Assembly: GCF_013459645.1 (NCBI RefSeq)
Contig: NZ_CP054861.1
Span: forward strand, 1,848,001-1,912,000
Reading direction: 5' to 3'
Source: Martelella sp. NC20
GTDB taxonomy: Bacteria; Pseudomonadota; Alphaproteobacteria; Rhizobiales; Rhizobiaceae
DNA length: 64,000 nucleotides
Numbering within the stretch: the stretch's first letter is position 1; each line of letters begins with the position of its first letter. The notes beneath the pieces were generated by a model. The model saw only the letters and a program-made list of their open reading frames with translations, had not been told where the DNA came from and made no database searches. A program made the translations under genes and the position numbers. This document shows positions 34,608-43,067 of this stretch, piece by piece.

Positions 34608-35226
34608 TTAACTTTTATCAGGTGAAGCCTTTTTGTCGGTTGCCGACGAAACACCTGTCGCGAGATGCAGTAACCCTGCGATCGCGCCATAGAGATCGAT
34701 ATCGAGACCCGCGCCGTCTTCAGACGGCGTCAGAACAATCCTGTCGATCAGATCACGCAGCGCTTCCTTCGAGCCCAGCATCTGATCTGCCTGGTTCAGA
34801 CCGGCAATGAGCTTTGTAATCTGTTCGCGATAGCGCGCCGCCATCGACGGATGGAAGAGGACTGGTTCCGGTGCTTCGACTGATGCAAGTTCGCGCTCAA
34901 GGGCCTTTCGGCAGCGATCGAGGTCGTTCATGCGGTCCTTGACCTGATCGGCAGGCACGCCGGCGACAATCGCATCAACCAGTTTGGCATGGTCGCTTTT
35001 GTCTCTGGCGAGTTCTGCTTCCTTGTCTTTGCGATCTGATGCGCTGAATTGGCCAGCCGGTTCCGTTCTGCGGTATATTCCTCACAGAATATCCTGACAG
35101 CTTCGGGGGCCATCAGATTATTGGTCAATGCCTCAAGGACACCGGTCTCAAGATCACGCTGCTTTATGGTGAGCATGTTGGTACACACGGCATTGCCCTT
35201 GTTGCGTGCAGCAGAGCAACCGAAAG
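34608..35226 (-). pseudogene. C-terminal scrap of a serine site-specific recombinase
   Basis: On the minus strand the piece begins with a zinc-ribbon-like GCSAARNKGNAVC, runs through TNMLTIKQRDLETGVLEAL and EYTAERNRLA, shifts frame near 35050, and continues as DQVKDRMNDLDRCRKALERELA to SPDKS. These are the C-terminal zinc-ribbon and coiled-coil regions of large serine recombinases. The catalytic resolvase domain is absent; at about 35226 the sequence changes abruptly into IS66 orfA. It is a dead fragment. Confidence 0.75.
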
Positions 35227-35488
35227 CTGCGGCGTCAATCCGTGGCGCCGCGCCACGGAGCAGACCGTCACGCCCGGCTCATAGCTCTCCGCGACGATCT
35301 CAGCCTTGCGCTCGTCGCTCCACGCGCGCCGACGACCGCTGCCCCTGAAAACCTCGAAACGGCGCGCCGGCTCTTCATCGCTCGATGTAAGCGTAAACTC
35401 TGAAGTCGACATATGTCCAACCCTTCGTGCGGGCTCAACATCGTCAATCAAGCCGAGATCCGGAAGGTGGGGCCAAAACACCGCTTAC
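35224..35488 (-). mobile_element. Truncated IS66-family end with orfA fragment
   Basis: The minus-strand frame from ATG 35412 encodes MSTSEFTLTSSDEE and RRAWSDERKAEIVAESYEPG then VARRHGLTPQL, the N-terminal two-thirds of the IS66 accessory protein TnpA. Outside it lies the IS66-type terminal repeat, minus strand GTAAGCGGTGTTTTGG (35473-35488) running into CCCCACCTTCCG, so the element's outer end is at about 35488. The tnpB and tnpC genes are missing. 35489-35636 shows no gene. Confidence 0.8.
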
Positions 35489-35636
35489 ACTCCAGGACGT
35501 CTCGCACTTCCTACAGGTAGGCGGGTCCCGAGCGCGGCTTCAAGACCTCCGACGCCGCCGCGGGTCGCCGGCGGCGCGCTCAACCCAACGGCACGTGCGC
35601 CGCCGGCAAAGCTGACATGCGATCGACGGAAGGCGT

Positions 35637-36545
35637 TCAATATTTTGACTTGCGCAACGCGGCTGGCGTGACGCAATGCAGCCGGCGCATGGTTGACGTC
35701 AGATGGCTCTGACTGCTGAACCCCGCCAATGTGGCGACCTCGGCCAAGGCGAGATCGCTGCGGAGAATGATATTCTGGGCATAGATCAGACGCTGGTTCA
35801 GGACATAGCGATAAGGGGACATGCCGGCGGTTTTGCGAAAGGCCCGCGTAAAGTGGCTGTAGGAGAGATTGCAGAGTTCAGCCAAAGCGGTGAGGCTGAA
35901 GTTCTCGGTCAGATTGGCTTGAATGAAGTCCTCGACATCCTTCCAGTTTCGGGGAGACAGTCCGCCTTTCGCATGACCGGGGGCCAGCTTCCGATCTCTT
36001 GCGGAGGAATGATTGCGCAGAATTCGCGCGGCATAGCTGAGCGCCAGCCCTTCCAGATACATGTGGCTCGGGCGGATTTCATGATCGATTTCATCGCGTA
36101 TCAGGCCCGCGATCTGATAGCCCGCCTGATCGACCGTTCCAGGCGGAGGAGGTTGCAGTTCCAGATGGCCGCAATCAAGCTCGCGCGCAGCAAAGCTCTC
36201 GAGCCAGTCGTGATCAAACGCGAAAAGGCAGTTCTCCTTCGGTGTGTACCAGCGACCCGAGAATTCCGATGCGTGCGGTATGAGCTCCAGCGTGCCGCGG
36301 TCGGCCGCAAACCGCCGCATTCGATCTGACGAAAGGGCCGTCTCCCGGTCCGGCTGGGCGGAAAGCATCTGTACGGCATAATGAAAGCCGGCAGAAAATG
36401 ACACGCTGTTTGGCCCGATGCGGGTCAATGTCACGCCGAACGGACCGAACTCGAATTTCCGGCCCCAATCGTCCGGCACAAAACCGAGCAGGTTTCCGGG
36501 TTTGTCCCCGGATGTCGCGTCGATATGAGCAGCGCGGTCATCCAC
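35637..36545 (-). CDS. AraC-family transcriptional regulator
   Basis: A 302-residue protein with an unassigned N-terminal sensing domain and a C-terminal pair of AraC HTH motifs (about residues 200-295): LTALAELCNLSYSHFTRAFRKTAGMSPYRYV and LALAEVATLAGFSSQSHLTSTMRRL. It lies downstream of the TRIC/glutamate-receptor-like operon in the same direction but 235 bases away, so it may be transcribed separately. A 14-bp dyad 48 bases upstream of its start could be an autoregulatory site. Target genes are unknown. Confidence 0.9.
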   Translation of the reverse strand: MDDRAAHIDATSGDKPGNLLGFVPDDWGRKFEFGPFGVTLTRIGPNSVSFSAGFHYAVQMLSAQPDRETALSSDRMRRFAADRGTLELIPHASEFSGRWYTPKENCLFAFDHDWLESFAARELDCGHLELQPPPPGTVDQAGYQIAGLIRDEIDHEIRPSHMYLEGLALSYAARILRNHSSARDRKLAPGHAKGGLSPRNWKDVEDFIQANLTENFSLTALAELCNLSYSHFTRAFRKTAGMSPYRYVLNQRLIYAQNIILRSDLALAEVATLAGFSSQSHLTSTMRRLHCVTPAALRKSKY

Positions 36546-36592
36546 GTGCCTGCACCTCTTGGAGCTCTTTTGCAGCCTGGCACAGCGAAAAT

Positions 36593-36606
36593 ACGTGAAA
36601 TCACGT
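36593..36606. promoter_or_regulatory. Dyad upstream of the AraC gene
   Basis: ACGTGA-AA-TCACGT is a 14-base inverted repeat in the 236-base gap between the AraC and TRIC genes. It could be an operator for the AraC protein; there is no second copy to test this. The remainder of the gap holds nothing recognisable. Confidence 0.3.
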
Positions 36607-36780
36607 CTAGCGGCAAAAAACCGGCGCTGCCCTGACAGCCATTGTCGACGACGAACTGATCTCCGTCAATATCGGCCGATCAGACCAACTTCAAGAGGGA
36701 GCGGATTGACCCGACAGGATTGACGCGAACCGCCCCAGACGCCATCGCAACCGGAGGCGGGATGGTATCCGTCGCAGACG

Positions 36781-37422
36781 TCAGTGCAGATCGTGTTTGT
36801 AGACGAATTTGGGCATGCTCCAGCCGAACCGCAGCGCCAGCAAACGCAGGCAAAGGCCGGCACTGAGGGCGAGCAGCAGGACGAGGTTGTGATCGAGCCC
36901 CAACCGCCCCCCGCCTGCGAAGATCGCAACCGTGATGACGGAGACGGTCGCATAAAGTTCCGCGCGAAACAGCAGCGGAACATCGTTGCACAGAATGTCA
37001 CGCAACACGCCGCCGACGCAGCCGGTGATCATGCCGGCGGCGATCACGACGAGAAACGGCTGATCGAGGCCGATGGCGATATTGCTGCCGATAATGCTGA
37101 AGACGACGAGCCCGACCGCGTCCAGAAAAAGAAAGACGCGCTGCAGCCGATGCATGTGCCGGGCAATGATGATCGTCAGGATCGCAGCCCCGCCCGTGAC
37201 CAGAAGAAGCTCCGGCGAGCCAACCCATGAAAGCGGATGATGGTCCAGAAGCAGGTCCCGAACAGAGCCTCCCCCGAGCCCGGTGATACAGGCAAGCAGG
37301 ATCACGCCGACCCAATCCATGCTGCGTCGCCCGGCCGCGAGTGCAGCGGTCATGGCTTCTGCGGCGAGGGCGACAAGATAGATGATGTGCAGGAGATAGA
37401 GCGTCGTCGGATCGGTAATCAT
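36781..37422 (-). CDS. TRIC-family trimeric cation channel (UPF0126/YadG-type)
   Basis: A 213-residue protein with about seven hydrophobic helices arranged as two homologous three-helix repeats. Each repeat contains the family motif: GLGGGSVRDLLLDHHPL and GCVGGVLRDILCNDVPLLFR. Bacterial TRIC proteins form homotrimeric, potassium-conducting channels. Its ATG overlaps the stop of the glutamate-receptor-like gene (ATGA at 37419-37422), so its translation is probably coupled to that gene. TRIC and a ligand-gated channel in one operon is not an association I recognise. Confidence 0.85.
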   Translation of the reverse strand: MITDPTTLYLLHIIYLVALAAEAMTAALAAGRRSMDWVGVILLACITGLGGGSVRDLLLDHHPLSWVGSPELLLVTGGAAILTIIIARHMHRLQRVFLFLDAVGLVVFSIIGSNIAIGLDQPFLVVIAAGMITGCVGGVLRDILCNDVPLLFRAELYATVSVITVAIFAGGGRLGLDHNLVLLLALSAGLCLRLLALRFGWSMPKFVYKHDLH

Positions 37423-38606
37423 GGCATGCTCCCGAAATATCTGAGGCGTAATTGCTCAATTACACCCAGTTCGTGAAGTTCGAGAAGCTCCAAAGTGACA
37501 CGCTCGGCGAGCGGACTTTGCTGGCGAACCGCGAAACCATACTTGTCCGGATGAAATAAATTGCCGACGACGGAAACATTTTCATCCGGATGACGGTGCG
37601 CATAATATTCCAGGATCGGCGCGTCGGCGACGATCGCATCGATCCTGGCCGCCTGAAGGGCATCGACGGCGCTGTCGATATTGTCGAAGGTGCGGACCCT
37701 GATGCCCCTGTTGCGCAGATACTCCTCGGATGCGCTTCCGGTGAAAACGCCCGTGACGTTGTCGGAAAGGTCGGCAAGGGAATGGATGCCGCTTTCCAGG
37801 GAAACGGTGGTCATGACGCTTGTGACCGATGACGTGATGTAGGCGACGACAGCGACGCCGCAAATCATCCAGAATGCCCCCCAGATACGCCCTTTCCAGC
37901 CAAACAGGTTTTTTCGGGTGGCCTTTCCCGAGGTCGCGATTGAGACGACGTGATAAAGGCTCTCGGAGATGCCCTCCTGCCATTTCCTCGGAAACTCTCT
38001 ATCGAAACGGCGGTCGAAAAGCGTCATTGCAACCGTGGCCACGGCGATGACCAATGCCAGCCAGGCATAGGCTCTCAGATGTCCGGCGCTCCGCAGACCG
38101 GCAATCACGCCGGAAAACCCGGAAGGGCTTGTGTCGGCAACCATGATCCTCAATCCCGCATCATACCATGGCTGCGTGAAATCAAGCACCTTTTCCCGGA
38201 CGCGGGTAATCGTCAGATTGGTGACGGCGATATCGACCTCGCCGTCCCTGGTCGCCCGGACCAGGTCCCGGAAGGTCGGATAGACGACATAGTGGGACGC
38301 GATATCCAGGTTTCCCGCCGCTCTTTCCCAGATGTCGATCGCCATGCCTTCATACGTGCCATCGCGTTCACTGACGAAGGGAGGACTGAGATAGAGCCCG
38401 ACTTCGGCGCGATCCCCCGCAAGCGGCTCGTCAGATTGAGCCAGAGCGCCTTTGCCGATTGCGGCGGCAAGGATGAGGAAGAGGATCGTCAGGAGGCGCC
38501 ACAAACGGGAGCACGGTCGTTTTTGCGCGACAGCTGTCATCGATGAATTCCGGCTTGAGTTCACATGCTGGATCACGGCGCGCTCCGGCGCGGGACGTCC
38601 CTTCAT
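37419..38606 (-). CDS. Ionotropic-glutamate-receptor-like ligand-gated channel
   Basis: A 395-residue protein in which an SBP_bac_3 domain is split by a membrane module, the S1-TM1-P-TM2-S2 plan of GluR0. Signal/anchor helix about 35-55; S1 about 65-160 with NLTITRVREKVLDF (ligand carboxylate Arg) and FTQPWYDAGLRI; TM1 about 179-197; pore-loop candidate about 213-232 (SLYHVVSIATSGKA); TM2 about 240-262; S2 to the end, with ADAPILEYY. The potassium filter TVGYG is absent, so ion selectivity is open. ATG 38606 is chosen because AAGGAG sits seven bases upstream. It is coupled by ATGA to the TRIC gene. Confidence 0.75.
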   Translation of the reverse strand: MKGRPAPERAVIQHVNSSRNSSMTAVAQKRPCSRLWRLLTILFLILAAAIGKGALAQSDEPLAGDRAEVGLYLSPPFVSERDGTYEGMAIDIWERAAGNLDIASHYVVYPTFRDLVRATRDGEVDIAVTNLTITRVREKVLDFTQPWYDAGLRIMVADTSPSGFSGVIAGLRSAGHLRAYAWLALVIAVATVAMTLFDRRFDREFPRKWQEGISESLYHVVSIATSGKATRKNLFGWKGRIWGAFWMICGVAVVAYITSSVTSVMTTVSLESGIHSLADLSDNVTGVFTGSASEEYLRNRGIRVRTFDNIDSAVDALQAARIDAIVADAPILEYYAHRHPDENVSVVGNLFHPDKYGFAVRQQSPLAERVTLELLELHELGVIEQLRLRYFGSMP

Positions 38607-38671
38607 TCTGAAACTCCTTCATGCGAACCACAACCGACCTCAACTCAGCGGGCGATGCGCTTTGATCCGCG

Positions 38672-38778
38672 TTAGAGCGTCGGGCGAAAAAGTGGGATCC
38701 GGTTTTTCGTTAACCCGACGCGTCAAAATAAAGAATCTAGAGCATCGGGTGATGCCAATTAATCGCCCGATGCTCTAG
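38672..38778. repeat. RIME-like intergenic mosaic element
   Basis: About 107 bases made of two palindromic blocks: GTCGGGCGAAAAAG pairing with the later TTTTTCGTTAACCCGAC, and CTAGAGCATCGGG pairing with CGCCCGATGCTCTAG. Size and two-palindrome design resemble the 108-bp Rhizobium-specific intergenic mosaic element. Its right edge (CTAG) is the target of the adjoining IS5-family insertion. 38607-38671 holds no gene. Confidence 0.55.
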
Positions 38779-38791
38779 GGTCTGTGGGGAT

Positions 38792-39178
38792 TCACCTTGA
38801 GTTGATCACAGCCGCTGCCAGATAGATCATGGCCTCAAAGCTCTGGTCCGTTTTACAGGCTCTCATAGCGATGCGCTTGAATTCTTTGAGTTTACAGAAG
38901 AAGTTTTCGATCAGGTGTCGCCATTTGTAAATCTCAGTGTCGATTTGGAGAGGCACTGATCGACGCGGATGTTGCGGGATTACTATTTTCGCGCCGCGCT
39001 TGTTGAGATCGGCTACAATGTTGTTGCTATCGAAAGCCTTGTCGGCGAGTAGCGCACCGAACTCGATGCCATCGATGAGCGGCGCGACGCCGACCGTGTC
39101 GAAGCGATGGCCCGGCAGCAATTCGAACCGGACCAGATTGCCTAAAGCATCGGTCAGTGCCAGGATTTTGGTTGTCAT
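38792..39178 (-). CDS. IS5-family transposase, second frame (OrfB)
   Basis: A 128-residue C-terminal half with TTKILALTDALGNLVRF, GALLADKAFDSNNI (second Asp) and IYKWRHLIENFFCKLKEFKRIAMR (third catalytic residue, Glu, in the YREN-like motif). It overlaps the first frame by four bases and is probably expressed as an OrfAB fusion by -1 frameshifting. It ends 13 bases from the left end of the element. Confidence 0.82.
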   Translation of the reverse strand: MTTKILALTDALGNLVRFELLPGHRFDTVGVAPLIDGIEFGALLADKAFDSNNIVADLNKRGAKIVIPQHPRRSVPLQIDTEIYKWRHLIENFFCKLKEFKRIAMRACKTDQSFEAMIYLAAAVINSR

Positions 39179-39543
39179 CCCACCTTTTGAGCGACCAATG
39201 GCCTGGCTCTGAGTCCCCCTTTTGCGCCCTGACCGTGTCGGTGGACCTTGACGATGGTGGCATCCACCATGGCGTATTCCATGTCCGGTTCTTCAGAGAG
39301 GGCATCGAATATGCGTTTGAAAATGTCGGCTTCACGCCAGTCGCGAAACCGGCGGAATGCCGTGCTCCAGTTGCCAAACGCAGCGGGCAGGTCACGCCAT
39401 GGGCTGCCCGTGCGTACAATCCAAAGCACGGCTTCAATAAACAGCCGGTTGTTTCTTCCGCTGCGACCGGGATCCATAGGCTTCCCCAGACAATGCGGCT
39501 CTATCTTCGCCCATTGGGCATCTGTCAGTACAAAACGATCCAT
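39175..39543 (-). CDS. IS5-family transposase, first frame (OrfA)
   Basis: A 122-residue N-terminal half: DUF4096-type start MDRFVLTDAQWAKIEPHCLG, then GRNNRLFIEAVLWIVRTGSPWRDLP and YAMVDATIVKVHRHGQGAKGG with the first catalytic Asp (VDAT). A run of four A followed by five G in the GQGAKGG codons is a likely -1 slippage site. After a -1 shift the frame continues TQSQAIGRSKGGMTTKILAL into the second frame. This is therefore probably programmed frameshifting, not a mutation. Confidence 0.82.
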   Translation of the reverse strand: MDRFVLTDAQWAKIEPHCLGKPMDPGRSGRNNRLFIEAVLWIVRTGSPWRDLPAAFGNWSTAFRRFRDWREADIFKRIFDALSEEPDMEYAMVDATIVKVHRHGQGAKGGLRARPLVAQKVG

Positions 39544-39719
39544 CCAAAGCGTGAATCACATTCGCGCTGATTTGTGAATCCCCACAGACCCTAGAAAGGG
39601 GCGGTTTCCTAGTGGTTGTTCAGGTCGACGGCTCTCCAGGCCGTATTTGAAGCGCCTCAAACTTGCCGCCTCTGTGACTGTTCACATTGCCTTTTTTTGA
39701 ACCCTGACTTTGGTGGAGG

Positions 39720-40373
39720 CTATCCCCTGCTGGCATGCATGCCCACCAGCCGCGAAAGCAGGATTACGGTATAGAGCGTGCCGCCGATCGCTTCGAAGGT
39801 GACGAAGGACTGGGCGTAGAAGCCCACCGGAGTGATGTCGCCATAGCCCAGGGTGGTGAGGGTTACGTAACTGAAATAGACCATCTGCTGCCAGTCGATC
39901 TCTGTCCCCGAACTGGCAATGAAGGAACCTGGAGCGCACCATTCAATGAGGGCCAGGACGGCCGCGAAACCCGACCCGATTACCAGATAGAGGGAGGTGG
40001 CCGAGAGCAGTACATCGGTCATGACCGTGCGCGTTCCGAAGGTGTAGCGGGCCAACACCGCAATCATGCCGAGGTGATAGGCGATGGAGGTCAGGTAGAC
40101 GGCCAGCGCCGCGCCGGAAGAGGGGGCATATGAGTTCAGTATGCCGGCCGAGAAGACCGCCAGTCCGGCGCACCCGACGAAGAAACGCAGGGGCTTGAAA
40201 TCGGTCAATGCCCACGTCGCCGCCACGAAAATCGCCGCGTAGAAACCGTAGAACAGCGCGGGCCAGGGGCCGCCCGCCGCTGACAAAGGGTAGGTCAGGT
40301 TGTGGATCAGGATCGCAGCCAGAAACCATGCGTTGGCCGCCACCTTGTTGCGGGCGGTGGGAAGCGACAGCAT
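39720..40373 (-). CDS. Two-transmembrane-pore potassium channel
   Basis: This 217-residue membrane protein has about four N-terminal hydrophobic helices followed by an Ion_trans_2 module. The pore helix and filter read YVTLTTLGYGDITP, the canonical potassium-selectivity sequence, followed by a last helix (FEAIGGTLYTVILLSRLVG). No RCK/TrkA-N domain is present. The ATG at 40373 has GGAAGG upstream and lies two bases after the ltrA stop, so it is co-transcribed with ltrA; a longer TTG frame overlaps ltrA. It probably mediates potassium flux across the inner membrane. Confidence 0.85.
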   Translation of the reverse strand: MLSLPTARNKVAANAWFLAAILIHNLTYPLSAAGGPWPALFYGFYAAIFVAATWALTDFKPLRFFVGCAGLAVFSAGILNSYAPSSGAALAVYLTSIAYHLGMIAVLARYTFGTRTVMTDVLLSATSLYLVIGSGFAAVLALIEWCAPGSFIASSGTEIDWQQMVYFSYVTLTTLGYGDITPVGFYAQSFVTFEAIGGTLYTVILLSRLVGMHASRG

Positions 40374-40374
40374 C

Positions 40375-41571
40375 TCAACACGCCTTCCGGTGGCCAAGGG
40401 CGGCCATGACCACCATGATCAGTAAAATGCCGGCGCCGAGCCAAAGTCCGTTGAGATGCAGGAGCAAAGCGGTCCAGCCCCATGCGGCCAATGCGACCAC
40501 GGCCAGAAGATAGAGGGCGCGCAGCCGCTCTGCCGTGACCCGGTGGAAGATCGTGCATCCGAGAAGAAACGCCGATGGTCCGGCAAAGGCGATGAGTGCG
40601 GTTTCGCCGTGGATTGCGTCGTGCGGATGCGCCACGATCATTTCGATGGCGACCGCTGTGATGACTGCACCACAAACGGCGACACCGTGTGCATAGGCGA
40701 GACCTGCGCGGGCGAGGCTGGTGTGATCTGTTGCACGTTTGAAACGATGCTCTCCGGGTTCAGAAAGGTCGACAAAATAGATCCACCACAGCGTCACGAT
40801 CAGCAGAAAGCCGATCAGAGCGGCAAAACCGGTGTCTGCATGGATGTCGTGGCTGACCAGATAGCCGCCCAGAAGAAGTATGGATTCGCCAAGCGCAATG
40901 ATGAAAATCAGCTGGTTGCGCTCAAACAGGTGCAGGCCTTTCAGTGTCCAGCTCGACATCGGCGTAGCGCCCTTTCCGGGTAGCCAGAACCCGGCGTAAG
41001 GCGCGGCGTAGTCGATAAGGACGGCCAGTATCCATAGCTCGAGCCGGGCGGGTGCGAAAAAGGCGCCGGCGATCCAGAACACGCCGGAAATCGCGCTCCA
41101 TGCTCCAAGCTGGAAATAGTTGCGCGCCATTACCTGTCCGCGAAACACGAAGACCATGTAGGCCGCGCGGATCAGAGCCATGGCGACATAGGCAAAAGCA
41201 AACAGGCCTGAACGGTCGCTGAAGGCCTGTGGCGCGGCCACCGCCATCAGCAGTGCACAGCCCATCAGCACGATCATCAGTCCGCGTCCGCTGGGGTGAT
41301 CGGGGTTTACCCAGTTCGCGGCCCAGGCCGTATAGTTCCATGCCCACCAGACGGCAGCAAAAAGCGTTACGTACTCCAGCGCTCCGAGCCAACTGGCGTG
41401 TTCCAGCAGGTAGTGAGATAGCTGGATGATCGTGAAGACGTAAACCAGATCAAAGAACAGTTCCATATTCGTAACACGGGGCGTGTCTTGCGGGGCGAGG
41501 TCACGCAGGGCACCGGTCGGGACGAGCCGGTGGAAAATGCTGGAGATGGAACTTTCCTGTCGAATTTTCAT
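40375..41571 (-). CDS. ltrA: Low-temperature-requirement A family membrane protein
   Basis: A 398-residue polytopic protein of the LtrA family. Its N-terminal signature VTNMELFFDLVYVFTIIQLSHYL is diagnostic, and more than ten hydrophobic helices follow (for example YVTLFAAVWWAWNYTAWAAN and GLHLFERNQLIFIIALGESILLLGG). The biochemical role of the family is unknown; the founding gene was linked to growth of Listeria at low temperature. Here it directly precedes, and is probably co-expressed with, a potassium channel gene. Length is normal. Confidence 0.88.
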   Translation of the reverse strand: MKIRQESSISSIFHRLVPTGALRDLAPQDTPRVTNMELFFDLVYVFTIIQLSHYLLEHASWLGALEYVTLFAAVWWAWNYTAWAANWVNPDHPSGRGLMIVLMGCALLMAVAAPQAFSDRSGLFAFAYVAMALIRAAYMVFVFRGQVMARNYFQLGAWSAISGVFWIAGAFFAPARLELWILAVLIDYAAPYAGFWLPGKGATPMSSWTLKGLHLFERNQLIFIIALGESILLLGGYLVSHDIHADTGFAALIGFLLIVTLWWIYFVDLSEPGEHRFKRATDHTSLARAGLAYAHGVAVCGAVITAVAIEMIVAHPHDAIHGETALIAFAGPSAFLLGCTIFHRVTAERLRALYLLAVVALAAWGWTALLLHLNGLWLGAGILLIMVVMAALGHRKAC

Positions 41572-41677
41572 AATTATCCCTGAAATTCGCCGACGCCTGA
41601 CTCTGGTCTACGACGGCATCGCACGTTGCAAGATCGCGGGCCGTAGCAACATCATACTTTGTCGAGACGTCGGGGCG

Positions 41678-41932
41678 TCAAGACAGGCGCCACGAAATGA
41701 ACCATCCAATGAGGCATGGCACGCCAAACACCACTGCAAATATGGGCAGTTCTGCTGCCACGGAGTAACCCGCATGGGCCACGCCGATCCAGAGATTGAC
41801 CGATGCCGCCACAGCCCAGACAATGACGAAGATCAGGAAAGCTCGGCGCAAGGAGGCGTTGAGCCAGAGGGCGATCCCGTAGATCAGAGCCATCGAAACC
41901 AGGCCGCCAAGAATAATGAAAATGGTGTGCAT
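41678..41932 (-). CDS. Small membrane protein of unknown function
   Basis: An 84-residue protein with three predicted hydrophobic helices (HTIFIILGGLVSMALIYGIAL; AFLIFVIVWAVAASVNLWIGVA; LPIFAVVFGVPCLIGWFIS). The ATG at 41932 has GGAG nine bases upstream; a longer frame to 42013 has none. I do not recognise a family. It lies between ltrA and a secreted hypothetical protein, all on the minus strand. Gaps on both sides are just over 100 bases, so it may be a separate unit. Confidence 0.6.
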   Translation of the reverse strand: MHTIFIILGGLVSMALIYGIALWLNASLRRAFLIFVIVWAVAASVNLWIGVAHAGYSVAAELPIFAVVFGVPCLIGWFISWRLS

Positions 41933-42052
41933 AGGAAAGCTCCGGATGTCAGACGAATGGTGCAAGCAACGCTCTTGTTCGCCTGGCACTACAGCGATGA
42001 GCTTTCGGTTCATTCCGTGCCTTCATGCGAGACAATCCGGAAAAGACCGACG

Positions 42053-42541
42053 CTAATCCAGCGTATATGTGTCGGCACTGCAGGCGCCCAAGGCGTCCGG
42101 CTTGTATTTGCGCCAGTCATCGATACTGAGCATCCCGATGCGAACAGCCCCATCTCCGATCTGACCGCTGATATCCTTGACGGTAAGCCACCGCACGGGC
42201 TGGTCGCAAAAGCCGTTCTTCTTCTTGTTTTGCGAGAAAAACGTGTCGGCGTTGAGTACCTTGTATACATTTCCGCCGAATTCAGCGTCGTTGCCGCTGT
42301 TCCAGACATCGATATACTGCAGCTTCATTTCGCCTTCGAGCCTCGAGAAACTTGCCGATGTGCGGCTCAGTTTCATCGTGTCCCCCAAGGTCGAAGACGT
42401 GCCGTTCGACAGAGCGGCATAGGAGCGGGCACTGTCAGTCGGCATGGGAGAGACTTGCGATTTGGCGGCAGCGCCAAATGCCAGCGCCAGACCAACGACT
42501 CCGACGAAAACGGCCAGAGTACCGCGTTTGAATTCAGCCAT
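42053..42541 (-). CDS. Secreted protein of unknown function
   Basis: A 162-residue protein with a clear Sec signal peptide (about residues 1-27; FKRGTLAVFVGVVGLALAFGAAAKS) and a mature domain of about 130 residues containing two cysteines (GFCDQPVRWLTV and LGACSADTYTLD) that could form a disulfide. The ATG at 42541 follows GGGAA; an upstream frame to 42607 lacks a site. No family is recognised. It is probably periplasmic and probably a monocistronic gene. Confidence 0.6.
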   Translation of the reverse strand: MAEFKRGTLAVFVGVVGLALAFGAAAKSQVSPMPTDSARSYAALSNGTSSTLGDTMKLSRTSASFSRLEGEMKLQYIDVWNSGNDAEFGGNVYKVLNADTFFSQNKKKNGFCDQPVRWLTVKDISGQIGDGAVRIGMLSIDDWRKYKPDALGACSADTYTLD

Positions 42542-43067
42542 AGATTTCCCGTGCCTTTCAACGTGCATCGAAACTTGCCGTTTCGAATTGATACAGGTAA
42601 TCAACAACTTCGGATATTGCGAAACAAGAGCGCCCCATCACGGAACCTGCGGTTTGTGATCTTTTCCTGATAGGATAGCCGTTTTCTGGAATCCTGCTGA
42701 AACGATATCGACGCAGGCCGCAGTGGAAAACCGGATGCCACCTGCCGATCTCCGGCTCACGGTTGTCGGCGGCCGCGTTGTTGCCTGCTTCCGGTGCAGC
42801 CACGCCGCGCGGCTCCCCCGGTCTGGGTCGTGGTATTGGCAAGGTAATGAACGGGCGTGGGTCGCCCTTGGAGGCCCGTAGCGCCTGGTCGAGCTGTTGC
42901 AGGAAGTCTGGTGAATCTCGCAGCGAAAGATACATCTCGGCGAGTTCATTGAGCGCAGGCCGAACTTGGGACCAGCGCGCATCCGCATTATAGCTCGGAC
43001 ACCATGTCTATCCTAGACTGTCAACCGCTCGGGGACCGCCGGCATCGCGCCGGCGACCCTGAGGCAA
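42542..43067. other. Gene-poor stretch with a coding-like scrap
   Basis: A minus-strand open frame at 42558-42935 reads like a protein near its start (MYLSLRDSPDFLQQLDQALR, then a proline-rich linker) and stays plausible upstream until a stop at about 42995. It degenerates toward 42700. No ribosome site or recognised family supports it, so it may be the remnant of a lost gene. Nothing else is seen here. Confidence 0.25.

Follow-up and report, generated by a model that had tools for sequence, protein, structure and literature searches.

We analysed a window of 64,000 nucleotides from Martelella sp. NC20 (contig NZ_CP054861.1, positions 1,848,001 to 1,912,000), in which two genes on the minus strand overlap: REC1 (37419..38606), encoding a glutamate-receptor-like protein, and a gene of the TRIC/UPF0126 family (Pfam Gly_transporter, PF03458; 36781..37422). 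The two frames are intact (395 and 213 codons) and have over-threshold family scores, far beyond chance. The reading that we prefer, with a probability of about 0.6, is that REC1 is an amino-acid-gated homologue of the Group 2 prokaryotic ionotropic glutamate receptors (iGluRs), loosely linked to an independent TRIC. The genes form a real, sporadically conserved pair of known families, and it is unlikely that they make up a single device; a wider pattern linking receptor and cation transport is worth testing. Receptors recurring beside cation exchangers and channels, and a genus in which nature has itself performed a receptor-loss experiment, provide concrete genes and assays for study, and set the receptor apart from TRIC in a pair otherwise open to over-reading as one device.

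The receptor gene REC1

REC1 was identified by Pfam, PDB sequence matches, an AlphaFold2 (AF2) model, Foldseek and VIA-align. Its 395 amino acids begin with a signal-peptide-like N terminus and follow the order S1, M1, pore-helix-like element, M3 and S2. Pfam scores, all above the cut-offs, were E 1.4e-18 for SBP_bac_3, 2.6e-9 for Lig_chan-Glu_bd and 4.7e-8 for Lig_chan, and PDB sequence matches were to the binding core of Nostoc GluR0 (E 4.9e-29) and, across the membrane part, to AMPA receptors. The AF2 model (mean predicted local distance difference test score 82.4) showed helices at residues 176-201 (M1; 38004..38081, minus strand), 209-226 (the pore-helix position) and 236-271 (M3; 37794..37901, minus strand), after which comes the rest of the binding domain. 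The pore helix and filter segment together span residues 209-231 (37914..37982, minus strand) and carry the family motif T-S-G-[K/R]. A sequence-only reading of this DNA had given REC1 the plan of GluR0, a binding domain split by two membrane helices and a pore loop. The architecture is upheld by Pfam and by the helix order of the model, whereas the potassium-channel filter is not, GYG being absent. The pore loop itself is represented by the predicted element at 209-226, and the helix order and the alignment with animal receptor chains are consistent with a re-entrant geometry.

Comparison of 40 receptor sequences showed that the ligand-contact columns T132 (40/40), R137 (39/40), S291 (38/40) and D328 (40/40) are kept, and this conservation of backbone contacts supports the amino-acid-type ligand proposed earlier for REC1. 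We take T132 and S291 to be backbone-binding contacts of the receptor superfamily. According to passages of Ger et al. 2010 (PMC2950845), it is the Arg of S1 and the Asp of S2 that contact the backbone of the amino acid in members of the superfamily. In the Group 2 proteins described in the same passages, two membrane helices and a P region are set within a split binding domain; the P regions show no recognisable potassium filter and were not recognised as resembling any channel of known selectivity. REC1 has S1 and S2 on either side of two membrane helices and such a P region, and its family keeps the S1 Arg and the S2 Asp; it was placed in Group 2 by these shared features. The word "operon" does not occur in the main text of that paper. 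With GluR0 of Synechocystis and Nostoc (structures 2pyy and 1ii5) REC1 shares the binding-domain fold and the ligand contacts. Unlike GluR0, for which an excerpt of PMC13099474 gives the potassium-channel Gly-Tyr-Gly, it has T-S-G-K/R, conserved among the 40 sequences at T225 (38), S226 (34), G227 (39) and K or R at 228 (39); a GluR0-type potassium filter was rejected on these grounds. Among the literature matches listed, none gave a physiological role for prokaryotic relatives of glutamate receptors that lack a potassium filter.

The TRIC gene and the overlap

The product of the second gene, 213 amino acids long, was assigned to the TRIC family, as the sequence-only reading had it, by two PF03458 repeats (E 7e-37, above the Pfam cut-off) and by full-length match to solved TRICs. 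It matched five distinct PDB sequences, two of which are named TRIC (5h36 and 5h35), the best being 5wuf (E 6e-35). Like RsTRIC (5h36), it has two repeats. As candidates for the glycine-rich kink motif that prokaryotic TRICs have in transmembrane helices 2 and 5 (in passages of PMC5477506), it carries GGGSVRD in repeat one and only GG (CVGGVLRD) in repeat two. The gene is the sole PF03458 gene found in the genome of Martelella sp. NC20, and its subfamily shares 31-39% identity with the TRIC common in related genomes and 49% with a Klebsiella yicG product.

The REC1 stop (TGA, 37421-37419) and the TRIC start (ATG, 37422-37420) share ATGA (37419..37422, minus strand), in agreement with the earlier description. 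A Shine-Dalgarno-like GGGAG (37429..37433, minus strand) lies within the last REC1 codons, six nucleotides before the TRIC ATG, and may act as the ribosome site for TRIC. Rfam at gathering thresholds gave no match in positions 35000-43000, and promoter and terminator scans gave site numbers about equal to those of shuffles.

Counter-ion flow, the function first suggested for TRIC, is not the sole role proposed for such proteins. Prokaryotic TRICs are termed channels, with physiological roles in prokaryotes that are almost wholly obscure (in passages of PMC5477506), while bacterial UPF0126 genes are reportedly required for glycine utilization (in an excerpt of PMC12173739). A glycine transporter beside an amino-acid-gated receptor would be no less natural than counter-ion flow.

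In the mechanism that we propose, a periplasmic alpha-amino-acid-like ligand would close the two-lobed binding domain of REC1, whose ligand contacts are conserved, and domain closure would pull open a putative four-fold pore of M1, pore helix and M3, through which ions would pass. TRIC would be made by translational coupling and from its own Shine-Dalgarno-like site in the REC1 tail, and would have an independent job, probably moving a small amino acid (glycine) or letting cations permeate passively. The operon, probably already present in an ancestor of at least some of the genus and found in Nitratireductor too, would let an amino-acid sensor and a transporter be expressed together without forming a single obligate machine; the receptor family is apparently modular and repeatedly joins cation-transport genes.

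Receptor loss and the frequency of the pair

We compared 13 Martelella genomes. REC1 was intact only in that of the window, and its paralogue REC2 was present in 10 (own included). TRIC was found in five, namely the window's own and four congeners without REC1 (G630, G634, G636 and G638), with amino-acid identities to the window of 90-99%. In the 14-16 kb beside the congener TRICs, the one receptor match was to a short piece of the tail, in G636. The ratio of non-synonymous to synonymous substitution (dN/dS, own script) between the TRIC of the window and those of the congeners was 0.024, 0.038, 0.052 and 0.069. The end of the receptor gene was recognisable at positions -90 to -20 before TRIC in G636 (55/70), G638 (49/70) and G634 (40/70), each with P <= 0.0005. 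Stops lie inside this tail in G636 and G634, while in G638 its frame is open, with a stop about 40 codons ahead of its end. All four congeners keep the GGGAG that precedes the TRIC start. These alignments make it most likely that the REC1-TRIC pair was ancestral in at least the G636, G638 and G634 lineages and that the receptor was then lost while TRIC was still selected. Since TRIC is under strong purifying selection in congeners without REC1, the two proteins are probably not one indispensable machine, and the claim that they form one chemosensory device is not supported.

Several observations weigh against our preferred reading. In G630 the same 70 bases contained no receptor remnant (10/70), so that the evidence for an ancestral pair covers three congeners and not four. 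All four TRIC-only congeners carry REC2 elsewhere, leaving TRIC a possible receptor partner in trans. The role in glycine utilization comes from reports on other UPF0126 proteins and not on the TRIC subfamily found here. The pore region of the AF2 model, a monomer, is of middling confidence (10-residue means of 72-87 at residues 201-240), and among the matches listed the whole-model TM-scores to animal receptors were 0.44-0.52, with a root-mean-square deviation of about 9-16. When the pore segment alone was compared with PDB, the profile gave two weak matches, to plant glutamate receptor 3.4 (E 0.0096) and to the Lmo2059 protein (E 0.14), and the single sequence gave only two decarboxylase chains (E 1.4).

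We weighed three other explanations, which overlap with ours, so that the probabilities need not sum to one. The first is that the adjacency arose by chance from island shuffling and has no functional meaning, the overlap merely saving space. The pairing is indeed rare, neighbours are varied and insertion elements lie around. Among 53 receptor loci from named genomes (flanks up to 6 kb), TRIC was present in one, that of Nitratireductor soli (L037). In a family sample of 247 genomes (receptor threshold E <= 1e-40), the receptor was found in 41, of which 33 had some TRIC, but the two were at most 10 kb apart only in Martelella sp. NC20 and in G231, where two small genes separate them; contig ends could hide others. 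Among plasmids, 18 had the receptor, 34 had TRIC and two had both. In one of these, an Agrobacterium plasmid, TRIC precedes the receptor by about 3.7 kb; in the other, about 20 kb separate the two.

The N. soli locus nevertheless argues against chance, and excludes that the pairing is unique to Martelella sp. NC20: gene order and overlap (frames joined by TGATG) are those of the window, protein identities are 58-70%, and an AraC gene 58% identical to that of the window lies downstream, in a second genus. TRIC was also enriched near receptors. We used 100 distinct receptor loci besides that of REC1 (REC2 included), with 848,638 flank bases; 64 of them came from stretches of more than 5 kb, and 7 of the 18 receptor plasmids were included. 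TRIC lay at most 6 kb from the receptor in 3/100 loci, when 0.17-0.20 were expected (1.0-1.2 TRIC per 5 Mb; P about 0.001). One stretch, that of G231, was enlarged after its TRIC was known, the first 1.5-kb flank (L020) already containing it. We consider chance adjacency unlikely. Genes were called with a codon model and homology clusters, greedy longest-ORF (open reading frame) calling being unreliable in G+C-rich loci.

It is also improbable, in our estimation, that REC1 is a non-conducting, membrane-anchored amino-acid sensor or scavenger with a structural loop, a reading compatible with the others. The missing potassium filter, the basic residue just past the filter glycine in 39/40 sequences, the moderate confidence of the pore region and the weak pore-only matches would fit it. 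However, conservation in the membrane segment is no lower than over the full length of the protein (mean column identity 71% for 34 sequences vs 56% for 40), and 34/34 segments matched Lig_chan at the loose limit of E 1 (best 7.5e-6), that of REC1 scoring 25.2 bits when cut out alone, below the cut-off of 30.8. The basic filter residue might favour anions or block cations.

The weakest explanation is the original one, in which amino-acid-gated REC1 depolarises the membrane, TRIC supplies counter-ion flow and the proteins act together. It draws on the gene overlap in the window and in N. soli, on the enrichment of TRIC near receptors and on REC2, which could stand in for REC1 in the four TRIC-only congeners. 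In an order sample of 397 genomes (receptor E <= 1e-60, TRIC subfamily E <= 1e-50), the receptor was found in 37, the TRIC subfamily in 42 and both in 11, against about four expected (Fisher P 6e-4, kinship uncorrected). However, only Martelella sp. NC20 among these 11 has the two at most 10 kb apart, and 31 of the 42 TRIC genomes had no receptor match at the same threshold, which favours an independent role for TRIC. With the persistence of purifying selection after REC1 loss and the single TRIC among 53 named-genome loci, this explanation is quite unlikely. No receptor/TRIC pair was described in the titles and abstract openings among the literature matches listed.

Other receptor partners and neighbouring genes

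The receptor family also lies next to other genes of cation transport. In 10/10 genus genomes that have it, including Martelella sp. NC20 (L102 8197-10478, outside the window), REC2 immediately follows a gene of the Na_Ca_ex family (PF01699). The same order, Na/Ca exchanger then receptor, was found in two other genera, in G040 (assigned by 40% identity) and in Pseudodonghicola (Pfam confirmed, gap of 54 nucleotides). LtrA and a potassium channel were near the receptor in 2/100 other loci (L036 and L080; P about 1e-5), the order in L036, from Nitratireductor, being receptor, LtrA, potassium channel and AraC. Other receptor neighbours were small secreted proteins, AraC regulators, DedA, UPF0114, DUF4424 and efflux genes. 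Judged by these gene orders, the family resembles a mobile module amid changing envelope and ion-transport neighbourhoods. A bolder proposal, which we regard as doubtful, is that bacterial receptor homologues with a conserved K/R-tipped non-potassium filter are an exchangeable sensor module for cation-transport outputs (Na/Ca exchanger, TRIC, TMEM175-like LtrA with potassium channel) and so place membrane potential or calcium under amino-acid-triggered control in Alphaproteobacteria, with a basic filter ring that may make the pore prefer anions.

A third Lig_chan protein of Martelella sp. NC20 (L103 7552-8616, outside the window) is 24% identical to REC1, and an exchanger-like gene (31%) lies about 2 kb from it on the other strand. 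Receptor relatives with 44-45% identity are present on four Salmonella plasmid records; in the one examined (CP074271.1, L191) the relative is near transposase genes, and these neighbours suggest horizontal spread.

Downstream of TRIC in the window, an AraC-family regulator (35637..36545, minus strand; Pfam and locus comparison) has relatives of 62% (L036) and 58% (L037) identity downstream of the receptor in Nitratireductor. Upstream of REC1 is an insertion element (38774..39595, minus strand) with 22-nucleotide perfect inverted ends and a two-part transposase, presumably IS5-like, adjoined by a palindromic repeat (38732-38783). Across this element lies the gene of a potassium-channel-type protein (39720..40373, minus strand; Ion_trans_2, filter TLGYGD), and one nucleotide before its ATG is the stop of an LtrA-family membrane protein gene (40375..41571, minus strand; Pfam). 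The LtrA profile had no PDB match up to E 10, and TMEM175-family genes were found in 0/41 relatives and in 16/200 genomes of the phylum. The fold predicted for LtrA is TMEM175-like, and profile-profile comparison with TMEM175 (11 of 17 sequences) gave E values of 0.22 (whole), 0.14 (N half) and 0.095 (C half), with an FSD-like motif in register in the whole and N-half comparisons. LtrA and the potassium channel were adjacent in 7/7 LtrA matches of at least 60% identity (own included) and in 0/17 weaker ones (1.5-kb flanks), and both are 87% identical in one other genome of the family.
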